From a virus: 37,716 nt of DNA. The notes under the pieces were generated by a model that worked only from the letters and a program-made list of their open reading frames with translations, did not search any database and was not told the DNA's origin. The stretch covers positions 1-37,716 of IMG/VR virus record IMGVR_UViG_3300037427_002690; one strand, 5' to 3'. A program made the translations under genes and the position numbers. This document shows positions 30,106-37,716 of this stretch, one piece after another (positions within the stretch are counted from its first letter, which is position 1; every line of letters begins with the position of its first letter).

Positions 30106-31377
30106 TCAAAGAGTTTTACTGTTGTATTTATTTATGAATTCACGAATATTTGTCTTAGGACCTTTGTATGCCTTACCACCAGGTTGAAGATTTCTCTTCT
30201 CTCCCTTATCAAAACCAGGAGTCATCTTGGCAGCATACTTGAAGTAACCGGTAGTTCCGACACGGGTATCTGGTTTCTTCTCCTCATATTCACGGAGATC
30301 ACTGATCCAGGACTTAAACATAATATCATCTTCTGTTACACAAATCAGATAATTGGTCCCTCTACGAACAATCTTACCGACAAATCCTGTGTTCAGATTC
30401 TCCACCAACTGATTAATCTTAAAGATTTTACCAGTCACATAATTCTCTCTCAAATTCTTCCAATCAAACTTAGGAGCAATTTCCCACAAACTCCAAGATT
30501 CAGTCTGAACTTTCATTGCCTTACGAACAGTAGTCATCATAGTTTTCACAGCACTATCATCCAAGATATCAGGAACACCCTTTCTGAAAGCTTCAAAATC
30601 ATTCTCAGTTGCAGCCTTTCTCATCTTAGAAGCAGACATTCCAGCAACTCCTTCATTATCTTCATCTCTTTCACCAGCAGAGATAGTTTCAATCTCTTCA
30701 AAATCATAGAGATCACCATTGTATTTCTGAGCCAGATTATCAAACTCAGAAACACGGTCAGATCCTACAACGATCTTGACATTTGAAAATCCATCACTAT
30801 TTGCCAACTTCAGAGCATCAAAAATAGTCTTGACACTTTCATCATTAATGATACTGTCAGCATGATCTGGGAACATCTTCTTCATCAGTTCCGTCTTTTG
30901 ATCAGTCTCCAGAGGATTCTTCTTAGGATCAACTGACCTTGAGGGATAGATTCTCATATCATCACCACCTGCAACTTGTGCAGCACCATCAAGAAGTTTT
31001 TCATGACCAATAGTTGGTGGATTAAATCTACCAAACACTAAGGTTACAGTCTCTCCTTCATTATTTCCTTTACTTTCACCACCTTCCTTATCATCACCAC
31101 CACTACTTCTCTTTGTAGTAGGTTCTTCCTCAGCAGAAACCCTCTTCTGTTGAGGAACTTCTATTCTTTGTTGAGTGGGTTGCTGACCACCACCAGTAGT
31201 AGGTGCAGAAGTTCCTCTATCAGAGAACTTAAGGTTACCACCAACTGTTCTCGCAACAATCTTACCTGCTCTATCTTTCCATCCACCACTACCATCACTG
31301 ACTAAACCAAGTTTCTTGGCCTTCTCAGATACAGGTGTACTTCTTGCTTCTGTAATAAATTTAAAGAAACTTTTCAT
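30106..31377 (-). CDS. HIGH-superfamily nucleotidyltransferase with T4 internal-protein-type N-terminus
   Basis: 423 residues. N-terminus MKSFFKFITEARSTPV resembles the T4 IPI/IPII/IPIII capsid-targeting peptide (MKTYQEFIAEA), with a gp21-type cleavage site I-T-E before Ala11. A Gly/Trp module follows (EKAKKLGLVSDGSGGWKDRA), then a disordered Gln/Thr/Gly linker (about 55-108). The catalytic domain spans about 110-290: FGRFNPPTIGH (115-125), VVGSDR (203-208) and SASKMR (248-253), the NMN/FMN-type adenylyltransferase core. C-terminal 130 residues are unrecognised. A GATAAATA late box lies 23 bases upstream. Late-expressed, possibly packaged, enzyme. Confidence 0.8.
   Translation of the reverse strand: MKSFFKFITEARSTPVSEKAKKLGLVSDGSGGWKDRAGKIVARTVGGNLKFSDRGTSAPTTGGGQQPTQQRIEVPQQKRVSAEEEPTTKRSSGGDDKEGGESKGNNEGETVTLVFGRFNPPTIGHEKLLDGAAQVAGGDDMRIYPSRSVDPKKNPLETDQKTELMKKMFPDHADSIINDESVKTIFDALKLANSDGFSNVKIVVGSDRVSEFDNLAQKYNGDLYDFEEIETISAGERDEDNEGVAGMSASKMRKAATENDFEAFRKGVPDILDDSAVKTMMTTVRKAMKVQTESWSLWEIAPKFDWKNLRENYVTGKIFKINQLVENLNTGFVGKIVRRGTNYLICVTEDDIMFKSWISDLREYEEKKPDTRVGTTGYFKYAAKMTPGFDKGEKRNLQPGGKAYKGPKTNIREFINKYNSKTL
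30129..30136 (-). promoter_or_regulatory. T4-late-like box CATAAATA
   Basis: CATAAATAAATA on the minus strand inside the 3' end of the nucleotidyltransferase gene, 29 bases before ATG 30100. Confidence 0.5.
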
Positions 31378-31408: not shown

Positions 31409-31657
31409 TCAGATCATTACATCCTTCAGGGATCTCTTCAATGATTCTATCATATCTTTACCCTTTTCACCTTTATCTGATTCCTTTTTCTCTTCAACCT
31501 TTTCTTTGATGAAAGTGAATAACATATCTTCATCCATCTCAAACTGTTCAACATACATCATAATATCATCCAGTGCCAGACCAACATCATCGGCATCAAT
31601 CACTAATGTGTCGTAGATGTTTTGCAAAATTGAAGGGAGTTCGTCGATGTCAATCAT
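31409..31657 (-). CDS. 82-residue acidic phage protein
   Basis: Acidic helical protein (MIDIDELPSILQNIYDTLVI, DDVGLALDDIMMYVEQFEMD) with a Lys/Glu tail EKKESDKGEKGKD. Overlaps the HNH gene by ATGA, so both are co-translated. An acidic chaperone or scaffold-like partner is conceivable; no family recognised. Confidence 0.7.
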   Translation of the reverse strand: MIDIDELPSILQNIYDTLVIDADDVGLALDDIMMYVEQFEMDEDMLFTFIKEKVEEKKESDKGEKGKDMIESLKRSLKDVMI

Positions 31658-34278
31658 TGTGTAAGTCCTCTATCGATGTTTTCTAAAGCGCTAGTTAATG
31701 CAACAAGTTTTTTTCTTTGGCCAGCTTTAAGACTATCAGGATTTTCAATCTGTTCTGGAGTCAAACCACTTGTTCTTGAATATGCATCAACCATCATCTT
31801 ACGAAGAGTCTTTACATGTTCTTTGGCCTTGGGTGTGAGAGGAGTTTTTTGCCAGGCAGGTGAGAAGGCATCTTTGCTCTTTGAGATGGATGATGAGTCC
31901 AGTGTCATCATACCCATTATACCCTTTAATGCGTCATCGTCAAGGGTGTTTTTGACAGAGGGGGTCATTCTTGTATCATATTTTCTGTCTGGACTGAGAG
32001 GAGAATTACCATCTCCTATCAAATAACCAATAGAATCAACTGTAGAAGCCAAATAGTTCTCATAGGCCTCGGGACTATCTTTATTATCAATGAAATTATT
32101 TCTAGCATTCTTAAGTTTTTGATGATTTTTATTAACTTCTTTAAGAATACTTTTTCTCTCTTCTAGGTCAAAACTATCGTCAGACATGATAGTGTTTTGC
32201 ATATTGGTAAGGTTACCAGAAGAAGATTGAGTTCCACCTCTTCCTCTTTCCAGTTCTCCTGCTTTATTGATAACAGTTCTACCACCAACATCATAGTTAT
32301 TAATACTGTTTCTACCCATATATTCAAACATCTTGGACTTATCTACACTAAGATTTTTTTGCATAACATCAAAGATACCATTCATTTGATCACCGGTCAT
32401 GTCTGTAACCAAAGAGTTTTCATCTAACCCATTCTTATCAAGGTACTCCTTCAGTTCTTCTTGATACTTTTTGAAGTCTTCTGGTTTGACCTTAAGTGGT
32501 GCCGCAGCTTTCTTACCTAGATTACTATCAAGAGTTTTATTAACATGAGACATCAAGTCATCACCTAACAATACAGAAGCTGCACCACCAATATTAGTTG
32601 CAAGATAATCATTGAATTTTGATGACCTATATGCCCTCTCCATTTTATCCCTAGTCTTTGGATTACTCAAATCGGCCATTACATCATTAGCCTTTTTTGC
32701 AGCTTGTTCAAGGAACTTTTTAAAACTAAGGTCTGCTCTGGGTTCATTCACTCTTCTCAAGAGCATAGAGAAGTTTTCAATCTCATCTTTACCACCAGAT
32801 TTCAATGGGACAATATGTTCTACTTGGAATTCACCAGGTGATCTTCTCCTACCTGCTGCAGCATATGCATCTTTACCATCTTGCATCACCCACATATGTA
32901 ATGCTGCTGATCCTCTAATAGGGTTAGCTGTTCCTTGTCGGTTCTTCACTCTAGGATCATAAAATTTCTTAGGTGATCCACTCTTTGCCAACTCATCTCT
33001 GGCTGGTTTAGGCAGTAAGTTATAAACAGCATCAGTAATTGTAGGTGTGACACATTGCATATTAGATTCAGCATCATTTCTCAAGTTAAATCCTTTGGTT
33101 TGAACACCCGCAGCGTCCATAGTTGAGAGATCATTTCTCTTCTCAATGTGTTTTGCCTCATAGTGTCCCAAGTTACTACCTGTTAATTCACTAGATTCAC
33201 TAGTCTTAAATTTACCTTTACCATCAACAAAATTATTGATTTCTTTGTGAGCATTCTTGAAACAATCCATCTGGGCTTTATCCTTCACATCGATACCGGC
33301 ATCCAAAAGTATTTGACTTACAGATCTCTTGTCTTTCTGTGTGATATTGATCTCCTCTTCGTAGTCTCCATTATTAACGGCTTCCATCAATTGATCAACT
33401 TTCTCTCTATTGTTCGCCGTTGCAAGACTGTTAAGTGCATCAAGACCCTTTCTATTCTCAGAGTCTTTAGAATAGTGGTCAAGGAATTCTTTTTGTGACT
33501 CTCTTCCATCATCAAATCTTTGATCTTCTACATCAGTATTTGAAATATCAGTAACTCTTTGTATAGATTCTTCTGTGGCAATATCTACGTCACCCTGAGT
33601 TATCGATCCATCAAAGTTTTGACCATTTTCTTCAAGATTATCAACTACAACTTTATCAATAGTCCTGAAATCTGATTCTGTCTTCTCTGGTTCACCTGCA
33701 TCTTTTACCAACTTATTATGTTCATCTGCCTTAGCCTGAGCTTCAGCTTCCTGTTCAGATCCTAATTCTGCTGCTGCTTCTGCTTCGGCTTGGGCAGCTA
33801 TTTGTTGTTTTTCTTGATTGTAAATGTCAAGTTCTTGTTGAGCTCTTACCAAGTATTCTTTATGTTGTTCAGGAGTGACAATATCATAAATATCACGCTC
33901 AAGCATCTGGGCAATTACTTCAATATCACCTGATTCAAATGCACTCTCATCAGGACCACCAGGAAGATTCCTGGCATATTGGTCAGCTACAGAAGGCTTC
34001 TGTTGTGGTTGTTCTGGTTTAGGTGCGTCTTTTCTTAAGTCTCTTAGTGTCCTCTTTTCTTTCTGTGCATCTGTTTGAGCACCAGGTGATTTGGCCTTCT
34101 TATCTGGAAGGTCATAATCTACAAAACGATTATTATCAAACTTATATTTCTTTCCCGTCTTTGGATCTAGCCAAACATTATATGACTGGTGTTTATACCC
34201 CAGTTCGTCAGCCTTTTCGGAGGCAGCGGACTCTAGAAGGTTTCTAGAGTCCTTTAGATATTTAAATACATCTTTCAT
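31654..34278 (-). CDS. 874-residue HNH-domain protein with internal-protein-like N-terminus
   Basis: Large late-region protein. N-terminus MKDVFKYLKDSRNLLESAAS parallels the neighbouring nucleotidyltransferase (M-K-x-x-F-K-x-x-x-x-x-R), with a gp21-type L-L-E site near residue 16, then a module ELGYKHQSYNVWLDPKTGKK. An Ala/Glu/Gln coiled coil lies near 156-190. An HNH nuclease core is at about 480-515: EFQVEHIVPLKSGG (His488), IENFSMLL (Asn502) and RRVNEPRADL (Asn511). The rest is unrecognised. AGGAG lies 6 bases before the ATG. A packaged nuclease or an internal head protein would fit; neither is shown. Confidence 0.8.
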   Translation of the reverse strand: MKDVFKYLKDSRNLLESAASEKADELGYKHQSYNVWLDPKTGKKYKFDNNRFVDYDLPDKKAKSPGAQTDAQKEKRTLRDLRKDAPKPEQPQQKPSVADQYARNLPGGPDESAFESGDIEVIAQMLERDIYDIVTPEQHKEYLVRAQQELDIYNQEKQQIAAQAEAEAAAELGSEQEAEAQAKADEHNKLVKDAGEPEKTESDFRTIDKVVVDNLEENGQNFDGSITQGDVDIATEESIQRVTDISNTDVEDQRFDDGRESQKEFLDHYSKDSENRKGLDALNSLATANNREKVDQLMEAVNNGDYEEEINITQKDKRSVSQILLDAGIDVKDKAQMDCFKNAHKEINNFVDGKGKFKTSESSELTGSNLGHYEAKHIEKRNDLSTMDAAGVQTKGFNLRNDAESNMQCVTPTITDAVYNLLPKPARDELAKSGSPKKFYDPRVKNRQGTANPIRGSAALHMWVMQDGKDAYAAAGRRRSPGEFQVEHIVPLKSGGKDEIENFSMLLRRVNEPRADLSFKKFLEQAAKKANDVMADLSNPKTRDKMERAYRSSKFNDYLATNIGGAASVLLGDDLMSHVNKTLDSNLGKKAAAPLKVKPEDFKKYQEELKEYLDKNGLDENSLVTDMTGDQMNGIFDVMQKNLSVDKSKMFEYMGRNSINNYDVGGRTVINKAGELERGRGGTQSSSGNLTNMQNTIMSDDSFDLEERKSILKEVNKNHQKLKNARNNFIDNKDSPEAYENYLASTVDSIGYLIGDGNSPLSPDRKYDTRMTPSVKNTLDDDALKGIMGMMTLDSSSISKSKDAFSPAWQKTPLTPKAKEHVKTLRKMMVDAYSRTSGLTPEQIENPDSLKAGQRKKLVALTSALENIDRGLTQ

Positions 34279-34293
34279 CGGATCTCCTAGATA

Positions 34294-35442
34294 TTAGTCT
34301 ACCCAGGAATTTGCAATATCTTCAAACTTTTTCAATTCAGTTTCAGAGAATGTTGTTCCTTTATGTTGAACTTCATCTGAAATTGCTCCACCAGCGAGAC
34401 CCCCAGCAACAGCACCAAGTGCACTTGCAACTGGACCACCAAATAGTGCTCCACCAACAGCAGCACCAGTACCTGCACCTAATGCCTTCTTGACTTTTCT
34501 ATCTTTCTTACCAGTTACAGCCCCAAGAGTTCCTGCAACTACAGGTGCCACAATTTCGTCAACCTGTTGGACTTCCTCGTTTGCTTTGTTGAGAGTCTTG
34601 ACGATCTTCTTAGAACGATCATATGACTTCTGACGCTTTTCATCAGTAGTAGAAGGACTTACAACCTCACGTCCTAGGTTACCTGCCTTACGGAACATCT
34701 TGTTCTTAGGAAGTTCCTTGTAACCTTCTTCTACTTCTTTCTTGAGCTCAACATGTTCTTTACAATTCTCTTTACCACACTCCTCACACTTACCACCCTT
34801 CTCCTCATACATGGAAGAATAAGCACTACTCCAATCTTGTCTGATTTGAGAGAACTCTTCTAGTTGAGGGCTCTTCATAGTAGTACCCATATTCTCCATA
34901 CCCTTACGGGCCTTCTCGTTATTCTCTTCTATATTCTTTATATTGGTCTCAAGGTAAGAAGAATCTTTTGTTTTCTTCTCAATCAAAGAAAGAATACCCT
35001 CTTTGATTGTCTTTTTCTCTTGAGCAATCAGTGCCTCATGGAGTCTCTTATTTCCAAGATCTTCATTAGAGATGTTGTGAAAATTCTCTTGAACTTTCTT
35101 TGAATGTCTATACGTAGTAAATCTCTCTTCAGTGTGACAATTATAAAAGGCTCTATCAAATGACTCTTTAATATACTCAACTTTACTAGATCTAAGTTCC
35201 GACTGTTCACCATTAAGTGCTTCATTAATAATCTGTTCGACAATTTCTTTCGATTGTTTAACAGTAAGAGTATTAACGAACATCTCTTCAATGATTTCTT
35301 CTGCAACCTCTTGAAGGTCCGCAGAATTCATCTGAGTAAATTCCATATCAGAGATGATATCTCTAGACTCGTTCAATTGATCACTAATTTCAGAACTGTG
35401 TACAGCTGAATAAGCTCTGTACAGATTACTCATATCCGACAT
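34294..35442 (-). CDS. virion-type protein with Cys cluster and glycine-zipper domain
   Basis: 382 residues from ATG 35442, after the CATAAATA box at 35474-35481. N-terminal half is acidic and helical (LQEVAEEIIEEMFVNTLTVK). A Cys motif KCEECGKENCKEH near residue 221 could bind zinc. Near the C-terminus GAGTGAAVGGALFGGPVASA followed by LGAVAGGLAGGAI is a glycine-zipper helix pair as in membrane-inserting or oligomeric proteins. Together: an internal or prohead protein that may interact with membrane on ejection; function unproven. Confidence 0.75.
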   Translation of the reverse strand: MSDMSNLYRAYSAVHSSEISDQLNESRDIISDMEFTQMNSADLQEVAEEIIEEMFVNTLTVKQSKEIVEQIINEALNGEQSELRSSKVEYIKESFDRAFYNCHTEERFTTYRHSKKVQENFHNISNEDLGNKRLHEALIAQEKKTIKEGILSLIEKKTKDSSYLETNIKNIEENNEKARKGMENMGTTMKSPQLEEFSQIRQDWSSAYSSMYEEKGGKCEECGKENCKEHVELKKEVEEGYKELPKNKMFRKAGNLGREVVSPSTTDEKRQKSYDRSKKIVKTLNKANEEVQQVDEIVAPVVAGTLGAVTGKKDRKVKKALGAGTGAAVGGALFGGPVASALGAVAGGLAGGAISDEVQHKGTTFSETELKKFEDIANSWVD

Positions 35443-35473
35443 GGTTTTTAATTCTAACAACTCTTATTAACAT

Positions 35474-35484: not shown

Positions 35485-36603
35485 TTAGACTTTAGAAAGA
35501 ACTTCTTTATAGATGTTTTCTGCGATTGCTTTCATCATCAAAGGCGGAACCATTCTACCCACTCTTTCTGTCTGTTGAGAATGAGAACCAGTCAAAACAA
35601 AGTCATCAGGAAGAGATTGAATACGTTTCAGTTCTGGAACAGACAATACTCTATCCTCGTTCCAATGAATTAAACCACCACTTGCAGTTAGTGTGGGAGA
35701 TGGTTTATAGAATGATGCCCTCTTAGTATTAAAACAATGACCCTTCTCATGATAATTCATACCAGAAAGAATCTTTTTAGGATCCTTAGGCATCTTAGAG
35801 ACAACTTTCTTATAGATACCACTCTTCAACATGTGTTCTGTGAGACCTTTAATGTTCTCAGGATCATTCTCAACACCATCAATAATATCACGAATCGTAG
35901 TATCTTTGGATAATGTAGGTGGAAAAAGAGAGGATACAGTCAATACATTCAGACCAACTAAATCAGAAATATCATCACGAACTGCAATAAAGATAAGTCG
36001 TTCTCTTGCTTGACCAACACCATAGTGAGATGATTTCATCACCTTTGAAGTAACAAGATATCCAATCTCTTCAAAGGCATTGGTAATCATAGCATAATAA
36101 GTCTTAGCCTCACCAATAGTCAGACCCTTGACATTCTCAGCAACGATAACCTTGGGTCTGATTTCATTGGCAACACGAATATATTCAAAGAACAAGTCTT
36201 CAATATTCTCTACCTTCTTACCATCTGAATAAGTCTTAGTCTTACCCCACCCATCAGAATGTTTAGAACCTTCACCACGACACATAGAACCTGCAACAGA
36301 AAATGCAGAACATGGTGGAGAACCATCAAGAATATCTAGTTCTCCTTCTTTAAGGCCGGTGGCTTCCAGGAAGTCTTTACCTGTCAGTTGTTTAATATCA
36401 TCAGGAATAATATGTGTGGATGGATAGTTCTCTGAATATGTCTTTCTTGCTTCTTCCACAAACTCATTGATACAAAGAATCTTACCACCCGCAAGACGAT
36501 AACCAGTGGAAGATCCTCCTCCACCAGCGAACGTAGAAATGACAGTGAACTTTTGTTGAGCTTCACCATCATAGACATTTTGTAATTTGTATGGAAGTTT
36601 CAT
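35485..36603 (-). CDS. DNA cytosine-5 methyltransferase
   Basis: 372 residues with all core motifs in order: I TFAGGGGSSTGY (24-35), IV GSPPCSAFSVAG with catalytic Cys98, VI VIVAENVKGL, VIII QARERLIFIAV, and the C-terminal half with a target-recognition region and motif X (SHSQQTERVGRMVPPLMMKA). Transfers methyl from SAM to cytosine; an accompanying restriction gene is absent in the window, so self-protection or marking of phage DNA is likely. ATGA overlap with the asparagine-synthase-like gene. Confidence 0.94.
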   Translation of the reverse strand: MKLPYKLQNVYDGEAQQKFTVISTFAGGGGSSTGYRLAGGKILCINEFVEEARKTYSENYPSTHIIPDDIKQLTGKDFLEATGLKEGELDILDGSPPCSAFSVAGSMCRGEGSKHSDGWGKTKTYSDGKKVENIEDLFFEYIRVANEIRPKVIVAENVKGLTIGEAKTYYAMITNAFEEIGYLVTSKVMKSSHYGVGQARERLIFIAVRDDISDLVGLNVLTVSSLFPPTLSKDTTIRDIIDGVENDPENIKGLTEHMLKSGIYKKVVSKMPKDPKKILSGMNYHEKGHCFNTKRASFYKPSPTLTASGGLIHWNEDRVLSVPELKRIQSLPDDFVLTGSHSQQTERVGRMVPPLMMKAIAENIYKEVLSKV

Positions 36604-37716
36604 GAGAACTGTTTCTTATAGTGTGTAGTATAATATGTTTTTGGAGAATCTACAATGTCTTCGTAAAGAGATTTGATACCCATACCATCCTGAAATGCTA
36701 CTTTCTTTCTATCAACAATATCATCTGGGAGTTGACCTCTAAAGGCCTCTTGGAGAATTGCTTTAGGTCTAGCCTTACCGTCCCAAACAATATCTTGACT
36801 CAAACCAAGTGCAGTTTCAACTAGTTGAGTGTTTAAGAAAGGTAACCGACACTCAATACCATACCTCATAAAGATTTTATTACATCTTGAGAAGTTCTTA
36901 CGATGTTGTGAACCAAAGAGACCAATTCTATAATTAGTCCAACCCTTATCTTTGATACCGTGGTAACTCATACCATATGATGCCCAGAGTTCATCACTAC
37001 CTTCACCAGACATAATTACTTTAAAACCATCTTCATGGATTCTTTTCGCAAGTTGGATACAAGGATAACCAATTTCCACCTGAGCCTTATGTGACATTTC
37101 AATAGTATTGATGACATCATCGACATCATCGACAGTAGGTGGTTCAACTCTAACTTCTCTAAGTTCAACTCCCAAATATTTAGCAACTTCTCTGGCAGAC
37201 CTTAAATCTTTTGATGTTTCATCATAAACTGCAGTATATGTCACCAAGTTTGGAATATGTTTAGATGCAATAAGTGTAGTAATAGCAGAATCAATACCAC
37301 CAGACAGTAGACATGCTACAGGAACATCCGAAATTGTTCTTTCATAAGATCCTTTACTTATACCAAATTCTATGTGTGTTTTGGATGTACAAAAGTCCCA
37401 GTCAGACGTATCTTCAATATGTTCTTTAATATTATACCAATAACCTTCTTCTACAGAATAATTAGATGTAACTTTGATAAATGATCCAGGTTCCAACATT
37501 TTAATGGTCTGACCATTCTCATCCATGACAAGAAGTCCTTTGATTTCTGAACAAAAAGAGAATGATGGAAATATACCTGTAAGTAGAGAATAATGAAGAG
37601 GAACTTCTCCATGGCGATCTCTCACAATGGTGATAGAACCATCACCCTGAGTAAATGCTATTGCAAACATTCCCTCAACTTTATTCAACCCCTCAATACC
37701 ATATCGATGCAATATA
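36600..37716 (-). CDS. asparagine synthase-type amidotransferase, N-terminus cut by window edge
   Basis: The frame is open to the right edge; the apparent TTG start at 37712 is an artefact because the visible N-terminus is already inside the glutaminase domain (YGIEGLNKVEGMFAIAFTQG). The ATP-pyrophosphatase P-loop is ACLLSGGIDSAIT, followed by MSGEGSDELWASYG. Glutamine-dependent asparagine synthases amidate Asp; relatives amidate other carboxylates, including sugars and modified nucleobases. The synthetase domain (about 240 residues) is short compared with AsnB (about 350). Confidence 0.88.
   Translation of the reverse strand, partial: ILHRYGIEGLNKVEGMFAIAFTQGDGSITIVRDRHGEVPLHYSLLTGIFPSFSFCSEIKGLLVMDENGQTIKMLEPGSFIKVTSNYSVEEGYWYNIKEHIEDTSDWDFCTSKTHIEFGISKGSYERTISDVPVACLLSGGIDSAITTLIASKHIPNLVTYTAVYDETSKDLRSAREVAKYLGVELREVRVEPPTVDDVDDVINTIEMSHKAQVEIGYPCIQLAKRIHEDGFKVIMSGEGSDELWASYGMSYHGIKDKGWTNYRIGLFGSQHRKNFSRCNKIFMRYGIECRLPFLNTQLVETALGLSQDIVWDGKARPKAILQEAFRGQLPDDIVDRKKVAFQDGMGIKSLYEDIVDSPKTYYTTHYKKQFS

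Follow-up and report, generated by a model that had tools for sequence, protein, structure and literature searches.

The question raised by this locus is what an 874-aa HNH protein does for a T4-like cyanophage (Kyanoviridae) and whether it is carried in the phage head. The window, meaning the whole stretch of DNA analyzed (37,716 nucleotides, positions 1 to 37,716 of IMG/VR record IMGVR_UViG_3300037427_002690), is a fragment of the genome of such a phage. By DNA match and gene order, its nearest isolate is Synechococcus phage RN05-S. The features on which the argument rests are the following.

30106-31377, minus strand: cytidylyltransferase (NMNAT-like), putative head cargo, with the leader MKSFFKFITE followed by A and the same module as the nuclease
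31409-31657, minus strand: 82-aa acidic protein; the gene overlaps the stop codon of the nuclease gene
31654-34278, minus strand: HNH nuclease, putative head cargo, type A of its family, 874 aa, ATG start
32731-32916, minus strand: nuclease residues 455-516, HNH core with E487, H488, N502, and N511
34114-34230, minus strand: nuclease residues 17-55, second N-terminal module, A-x-x-LG ... W-x-D-x-x-x-GK ... F
34231-34278, minus strand: nuclease residues 1-16, MKDVFKYLKDSRNLLE, T4-type capsid-targeting leader with a presumed prohead-protease site after LLE16
34294-35460, minus strand: gene upstream of the nuclease gene, whose RN05-S ortholog is annotated as a virion protein
35485-36603, minus strand: C5-cytosine DNA methyltransferase (PF00145, E 4.9e-53), candidate self-protection gene

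The first-pass annotation, made from the letters alone, had reported the 874-aa reading frame at 31654-34278, and it is open there on the minus strand. Full-length relatives of the protein were found in RN05-S (47% identity) and in IMG/VR (66-81%). At 36600-37712, an asparagine-synthase-like gene, truncated by the window edge, overlaps the start of the C5-methyltransferase gene; S-B05 and several IMG/VR loci also have such a gene upstream of the C5-methyltransferase, whereas RN05-S does not. In a late promoter search of the window, TATAAATA occurred twice, which is not above chance and in neither case upstream of the nuclease gene, and CTTAAATA was not found.

The HNH core had been placed at His488, Asn502, and Asn511, and the residues are found exactly there. 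The assignment was to be given up if profile comparison did not support the signature, and profiles do support it. Pfam PF01844 matched nuclease residues 483-506 at E 0.0047, its 17.5 bits falling short of the curated 21.4, while a six-frame Pfam search gave 21.5 bits, above the 21.4 cut-off, and PHROG HNH families matched the nuclease at E 3e-4. The Pfam score of the nuclease is borderline by itself, and the family profile is clearer. The family was assembled from IMG/VR and isolates as 41 distinct proteins starting with a DVFKYLK-type leader, and its members are 560 to 980 aa long. In an alignment of 21 members, just 23 columns were invariant, and E487, H488, N502, and N511 were among them; those outside the N terminus, mostly in the HNH region, were R455, Q466, G468, D470, Y472, G476, E487, H488, N502, N511, and D516. 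In a core alignment of 25 members, which takes in a fourth, very different payload, H488, N502, and N511 were among 6 invariant columns. The HNH residues are thus nearly invariant although relatives are often only about 20% identical. The PDB matches of the family profiles were almost exclusively Cas9 HNH domains, with best E values of 6e-4 (21 members) and 5.4e-5 (25-member core). Family-wide conservation together with these profile matches to Cas9 HNH settles the HNH identity by homology; nuclease activity has not been assayed.

The nuclease is under purifying selection, which is strongest at the HNH core (dN/dS of 0.12-0.20 over residues 405-560). The AF2 model of the HNH core places strands around H488 and N502, but its confidence (mean pLDDT 49) was too low for a fold to be assigned. 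The full-protein prediction reached a pTM of 0.33, and searching for similar folds with it was uninformative. The beta-beta-alpha metal fold of HNH enzymes is therefore not demonstrated, and the HNH identity comes from profiles and conserved residues.

The same annotation had aligned the N terminus of the nuclease with that of the neighboring cytidylyltransferase, followed by an LLE site and by a second module held in common. The alignment held and is more than chance by a held-out hidden Markov model (HMM), and the LLE site is located at residues 14-16. The claim of the same second module held in part, as the motif is W-x-D-x-x-x-G-K in the nuclease and W-x-D-x-x-G-K in the neighbor. To avoid circularity, only the N termini of 45 cytidylyltransferases went into the HMM, which was run against 485 proteins. 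The window nuclease was matched at E 5.5e-5, and all 41 members of the nuclease family were recovered, 38 of them at E < 1e-3. In S-CREM2, gp14 (the kinase) and gp12 (the HNH protein) were recognized and, more weakly, gp154. Of the 106 T4 open reading frames, IPII and IPIII scored best, with alignments covering residues 1-13 to 1-16. T4 gp22, T4 gp24, and the capsid protein of S-CREM2 gave weak matches that were discarded, as they did not align on the N-terminal leader. In the ACG-2014f phages, a nuclease and a cytidylyltransferase share 33.6% identity over 125 aa (E 1e-13). A hydrophobic-x-E site follows the leader in all 24 distinct leaders of the family, compared with 6.1 ± 2.1 (maximum, 13) in shuffled sequences; this count is support rather than independent proof, because the leaders are related to each other.

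In the T4 record, IPII and IPIII start with MKTYQEFIAE followed by A. Ten residues of IPIII are enough for packaging; positions 4 and 7 of the T4 leader act mainly in targeting and positions 8 and 10 in processing, and Asp at position 10 prevents processing but not targeting (PMC9026906). The nuclease leader, MKDVFKYLKDSRNLLE followed by S, has Asp rather than Glu at position 10, and its LLE site comes later. T4 IPI has a longer leader, which the nuclease leader with its later LLE site resembles. By homology and statistics, the nuclease leader belongs with the T4 capsid-targeting sequences.

The second module of the nuclease is common to the cytidylyltransferase and virion kinases. The N-terminal module occurs twice in the virion-type kinases of S-CREM2 (L017:8580-10847) and S-N03 (L152:871-2931). 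The second module exists in no fewer than three sequence versions, independent of nuclease type (L004:10004-10450 compared with L002, L005, and L025). That the versions do not track the nuclease type points to recombination within the first ~60 codons.

With the leader-plus-module profile, exactly two places, the nuclease and the cytidylyltransferase, were detected in 32 of 36 IMG/VR records; two fragments had one place, and two S-TIM5-like records had none. The complete genomes of RN05-S and S-B05 likewise have leader plus module only in these two proteins. A single copy, that of the cytidylyltransferase, is kept in five of the seven isolates without the nuclease, and also in Syn9 and S-B64. 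In S-CRM01, the held-out profile found the protein kinase g130 and a small protein; a putative kinase was detected in virions of this phage (PMC10665884). The paired arrangement of two cargo proteins proposed at first pass thus held, and the nuclease-cytidylyltransferase pair is its best-supported reading.

Evidence from virions comes from related phages. In S-CREM2, the homolog gp12 (869 aa) was detected with 28 peptides by virion mass spectrometry, and the virion proteome also contained the gp14 kinase, the gp6 SAM hydrolase, gp13, and the gp154 cytidylyltransferase (PMC10665884). Leaders of the capsid-targeting type are present on all of these (gp12, gp13, gp14, gp6, and gp154). A strict leader pattern selected 5 of the 219 S-CREM2 proteins, 4 of which belong to the virion set of 52 (P = 0.012). 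The authors of that study cautioned that nonstructural proteins might be contaminants (PMC10665884). The cytidylyltransferase is also present in S-SM1 virions (PMC3037559), so the window cytidylyltransferase has orthologs in the virions of S-SM1 and S-CREM2. The nuclease homologs of S-TIM5 and S-CBWM1 are virion proteins by record annotation. The occurrence of homologs in virions is shown by homology and statistics. For the window protein and its closest relatives there are no virion data, and virion presence of the window nuclease is inferred by homology. With this qualification, the earlier suggestion of a head-packaged nuclease is supported and remains the best-supported reading; its proposed target, host DNA or a competitor phage, is undecided. 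The methyltransferase neighbor, the swapping of alleles, and the small partner gene described below go beyond what had been noted before. Beside the HNH gene, small proteins are encoded at L017:5055-5624 and L150:6240-6749, one annotated as restriction endonuclease EcoRI and the other as hypothetical; neither has a Pfam match, and they may perhaps represent a second nuclease.

S-CREM2 gp12 (L017:5705-8314) was named CRISPR-Cas9 and published as a Cas9 acquired from hosts (PMC10665884), and it is deposited as CRISPR-associated Cas9. It has the same leader, module, HNH core, and size as the window nuclease and is found in virions, but its payload sequence is of a different type. The name is misleading for gp12, because the protein carries the cargo leader and module and only its HNH motif is Cas9-like. 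The targeting leader, the payload family, and the methyltransferase link were not described in that paper. By profile, the Cas9 HNH domain is the closest HNH domain to that of the window nuclease, and the two can be aligned at the D/E-H, N, and N positions. Pfam, at an E limit of 1, detected HNH alone in the window nuclease, with neither RuvC nor any further Cas9 domain, and the guide RNA context of Cas9 is lacking. Membership of the window nuclease in Cas9 was therefore rejected, as only the HNH motif is common to both.

Exchange of the payload was seen in the ACG-2014f phages (45 records, of which 4 are RefSeq duplicates). The genes just upstream of the cargo gene are 99-100% identical and the sigma gene downstream is 96-98% identical. 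Within the cargo, the first ~210 residues are 84-98% identical, and then the DNA similarity ends abruptly; five different HNH C termini (alleles) stand behind one constant N terminus. These comparisons show, by homology and statistics, that the N terminus is constant while the nuclease payload is exchanged. In S-B43, only a 187-aa C-terminal remnant of a type B nuclease was observed (L014:5929-6492), at an inverted junction with a tail-gene block; elsewhere in its genome, this phage still has the C5-methyltransferase.

The C5-methyltransferase gene of the window is separated from the nuclease gene by one gene. A C5-methyltransferase also neighbors the nuclease in the RN05-S group and S-TIM5, a D12 Dam does so in S-N03, S-CREM2, L057, and L085, an N4/N6 methylase in L074 and L075, and an NPPF-motif protein without a Pfam match in L042 and L050. 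A C5-methyltransferase at the similarity of that of the window is limited among cyanophages to RB11-B, S-B43, S-B05, RN05-S, and S-CRM01. A search for three methyltransferase families placed a member no more than 5 kb from the nuclease in 9 of the 11 isolates that carry the nuclease, compared with none within 5 kb of the cargo cytidylyltransferase in the seven control isolates, which have the cytidylyltransferase but no nuclease (Fisher's P of about 0.001 by our own arithmetic; related phages are not independent). In S-CRM01, the C5-methyltransferase is 60 kb from the nuclease, and in S-CBWM1 none of the three families was found. Among metagenomic loci with full flanks, 21 of 24 nonredundant clusters had a methyltransferase within 5 kb of the nuclease and three had none. 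Homology and statistics thus show that the nuclease gene has DNA methyltransferases from unrelated families in its neighborhood.

Whether nuclease and methyltransferase are matched is less clear. In ACG-2014f, three versions of the adjacent Dam gene occur, and which of them is present follows from the nuclease allele in all 45 records: the alleles of 19, 2, and 5 records share one version, and those of 8 and 11 records have the others. The first Dam of these phages was not counted as a partner, as it is present in nearly all cyanophages. Eco57I-type methylases come in addition with three of the alleles, one of which brings a further DNA methylase as well. This covariation might be simple linkage. 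Strict pairing was not found in the window lineage, where nucleases of types A, B, and D all occur with the same C5-methyltransferase, which weakens the case for cognate pairs.

The 82-aa gene follows all 12 type A nucleases for which downstream sequence is available and follows no other type. It is under purifying selection, and its product is strongly acidic (pI 4.1), compared with a pI of 9.7 for the HNH core. The protein may be an inhibitor or accessory protein of the nuclease, but binding has not been shown. Because its C-terminal tail, ESLKRSLRDP, also terminates several nucleases of other types, the gene may alternatively be a relic or border of gene exchange or a second targeting tail.

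The nearest known kind is the head cargo of T4, where IPI, IPII, IPIII, and Alt have the same leader pattern, an LxE-type processing site, and diverse payloads behind the leader. T4 cargo consists of small anti-restriction proteins or an ADP-ribosyltransferase, whereas the window payload is a large HNH nuclease, with a second conserved module behind the leader and methyltransferase genes nearby, unlike T4 cargo. What is new, as far as the open-access literature searched shows, is a swappable HNH payload with methyltransferase neighbors. The polyvalent proteins DarA and DarB of P1 are likewise large, packaged in the head, injected, and used against the host (PMC5512222), but they carry other domains (peptidase, ART, and methylase-helicase). 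Polyvalent proteins combine several unrelated conflict domains in one chain, and Pfam found only HNH in the nuclease. Homing endonucleases are small, free-standing or intron borne, and not in virions; proteins of 560-980 aa with a leader and a virion homolog do not fit this group. The locus resembles restriction-modification systems in having a nuclease gene with methyltransferase neighbors, and bacteriocin-immunity pairs in combining a constant delivery part with an exchangeable toxic part. In contrast to both, the window nuclease would be delivered by the virion, the methyltransferase is not strictly matched in the lineage, and protection by methylation has not been shown. A search of the open-access literature yielded no description of a swappable HNH head cargo, of capsid-targeted cargo in cyanophages, or of packaged phage nucleases like these.

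On balance, we lean toward a head-packaged, injected nuclease that is probably restriction-like and spares the phage's own methylated DNA. Its parts are not equally secure: the packaged nuclease is by itself likely, by homology, whereas for protection by methylation the case could go either way. The nuclease would be made during infection, and its first ~16 residues would draw it into the prohead core, where the prohead protease would probably cut after LLE16. It would then enter the cell together with the ejected DNA, and there the HNH domain would cut host or competitor-phage DNA without the phage's own methylation, while the nearby methyltransferase would protect the phage genome. Of these steps, the cut at E16, the injection, the dependence of cutting on methylation, and the target are inferred, and neither nuclease activity nor a block by methylation has been assayed. 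A bolder version, toward which we are mildly skeptical, is a polymorphic virion-borne restriction system made of a constant capsid-targeting N terminus, an exchangeable HNH payload, and protective methyltransferases. It would be delivered with the DNA and destroy unmodified host or rival-phage DNA, working like bacteriocins with their delivery domain, toxin, and immunity gene.

A closely related possibility, which we hold to be rather unlikely, is that the head cargo nuclease degrades the host chromosome or host defense plasmids at the start of infection. The 82-aa acidic partner, timing, or general DNA modification would then provide self-protection, and the methyltransferases would only counter host restriction. 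This rests on the same packaging evidence as the preferred reading. The match of the acidic partner with the basic HNH core, its restriction to type A, and the failure of the methyltransferase to track nuclease type in the window lineage all speak for it, but by itself it leaves unexplained the exchange of payloads among near-identical phages and the accompanying change of methyltransferases. HNH domains are frequent among homing enzymes, and the nuclease might instead spread its own allele in mixed infections by cutting the locus of a co-infecting phage, with repair then copying the cassette. The abrupt cassette borders inside one gene and the repeated replacement of alleles would fit. We consider this unlikely, as the length of the proteins, the head-targeting leader, and the homologs in virions are unlike free-standing homing HNH enzymes, and methyltransferase neighbors would not be expected. 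Least probable of all, and very unlikely, is a role in head structure or packaging, with an HNH fold that has lost its catalytic function or works in DNA packaging. In its favor are the large size with long helical stretches, the labeling of homologs as virion structural proteins, and the S-CBWM1 homolog adjoining the capsid gene. Against it, most Kyanoviridae lack the nuclease, and a payload that changes fast while its catalytic residues stay fixed is ill-suited to a structural part.

If the packaged-nuclease reading is true, nucleases travel in the heads of abundant marine T4-like phages, and the "Cas9" label in the literature would be corrected. The leader would be a general address tag, allowing head cargo to be predicted from sequence across the Kyanoviridae. 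Phage-phage warfare, or attack on the host genome at time zero of infection, would become directly testable, and the ACG-2014f phages are natural isolates that are near-identical around the locus and differ in the nuclease and its methyltransferases.
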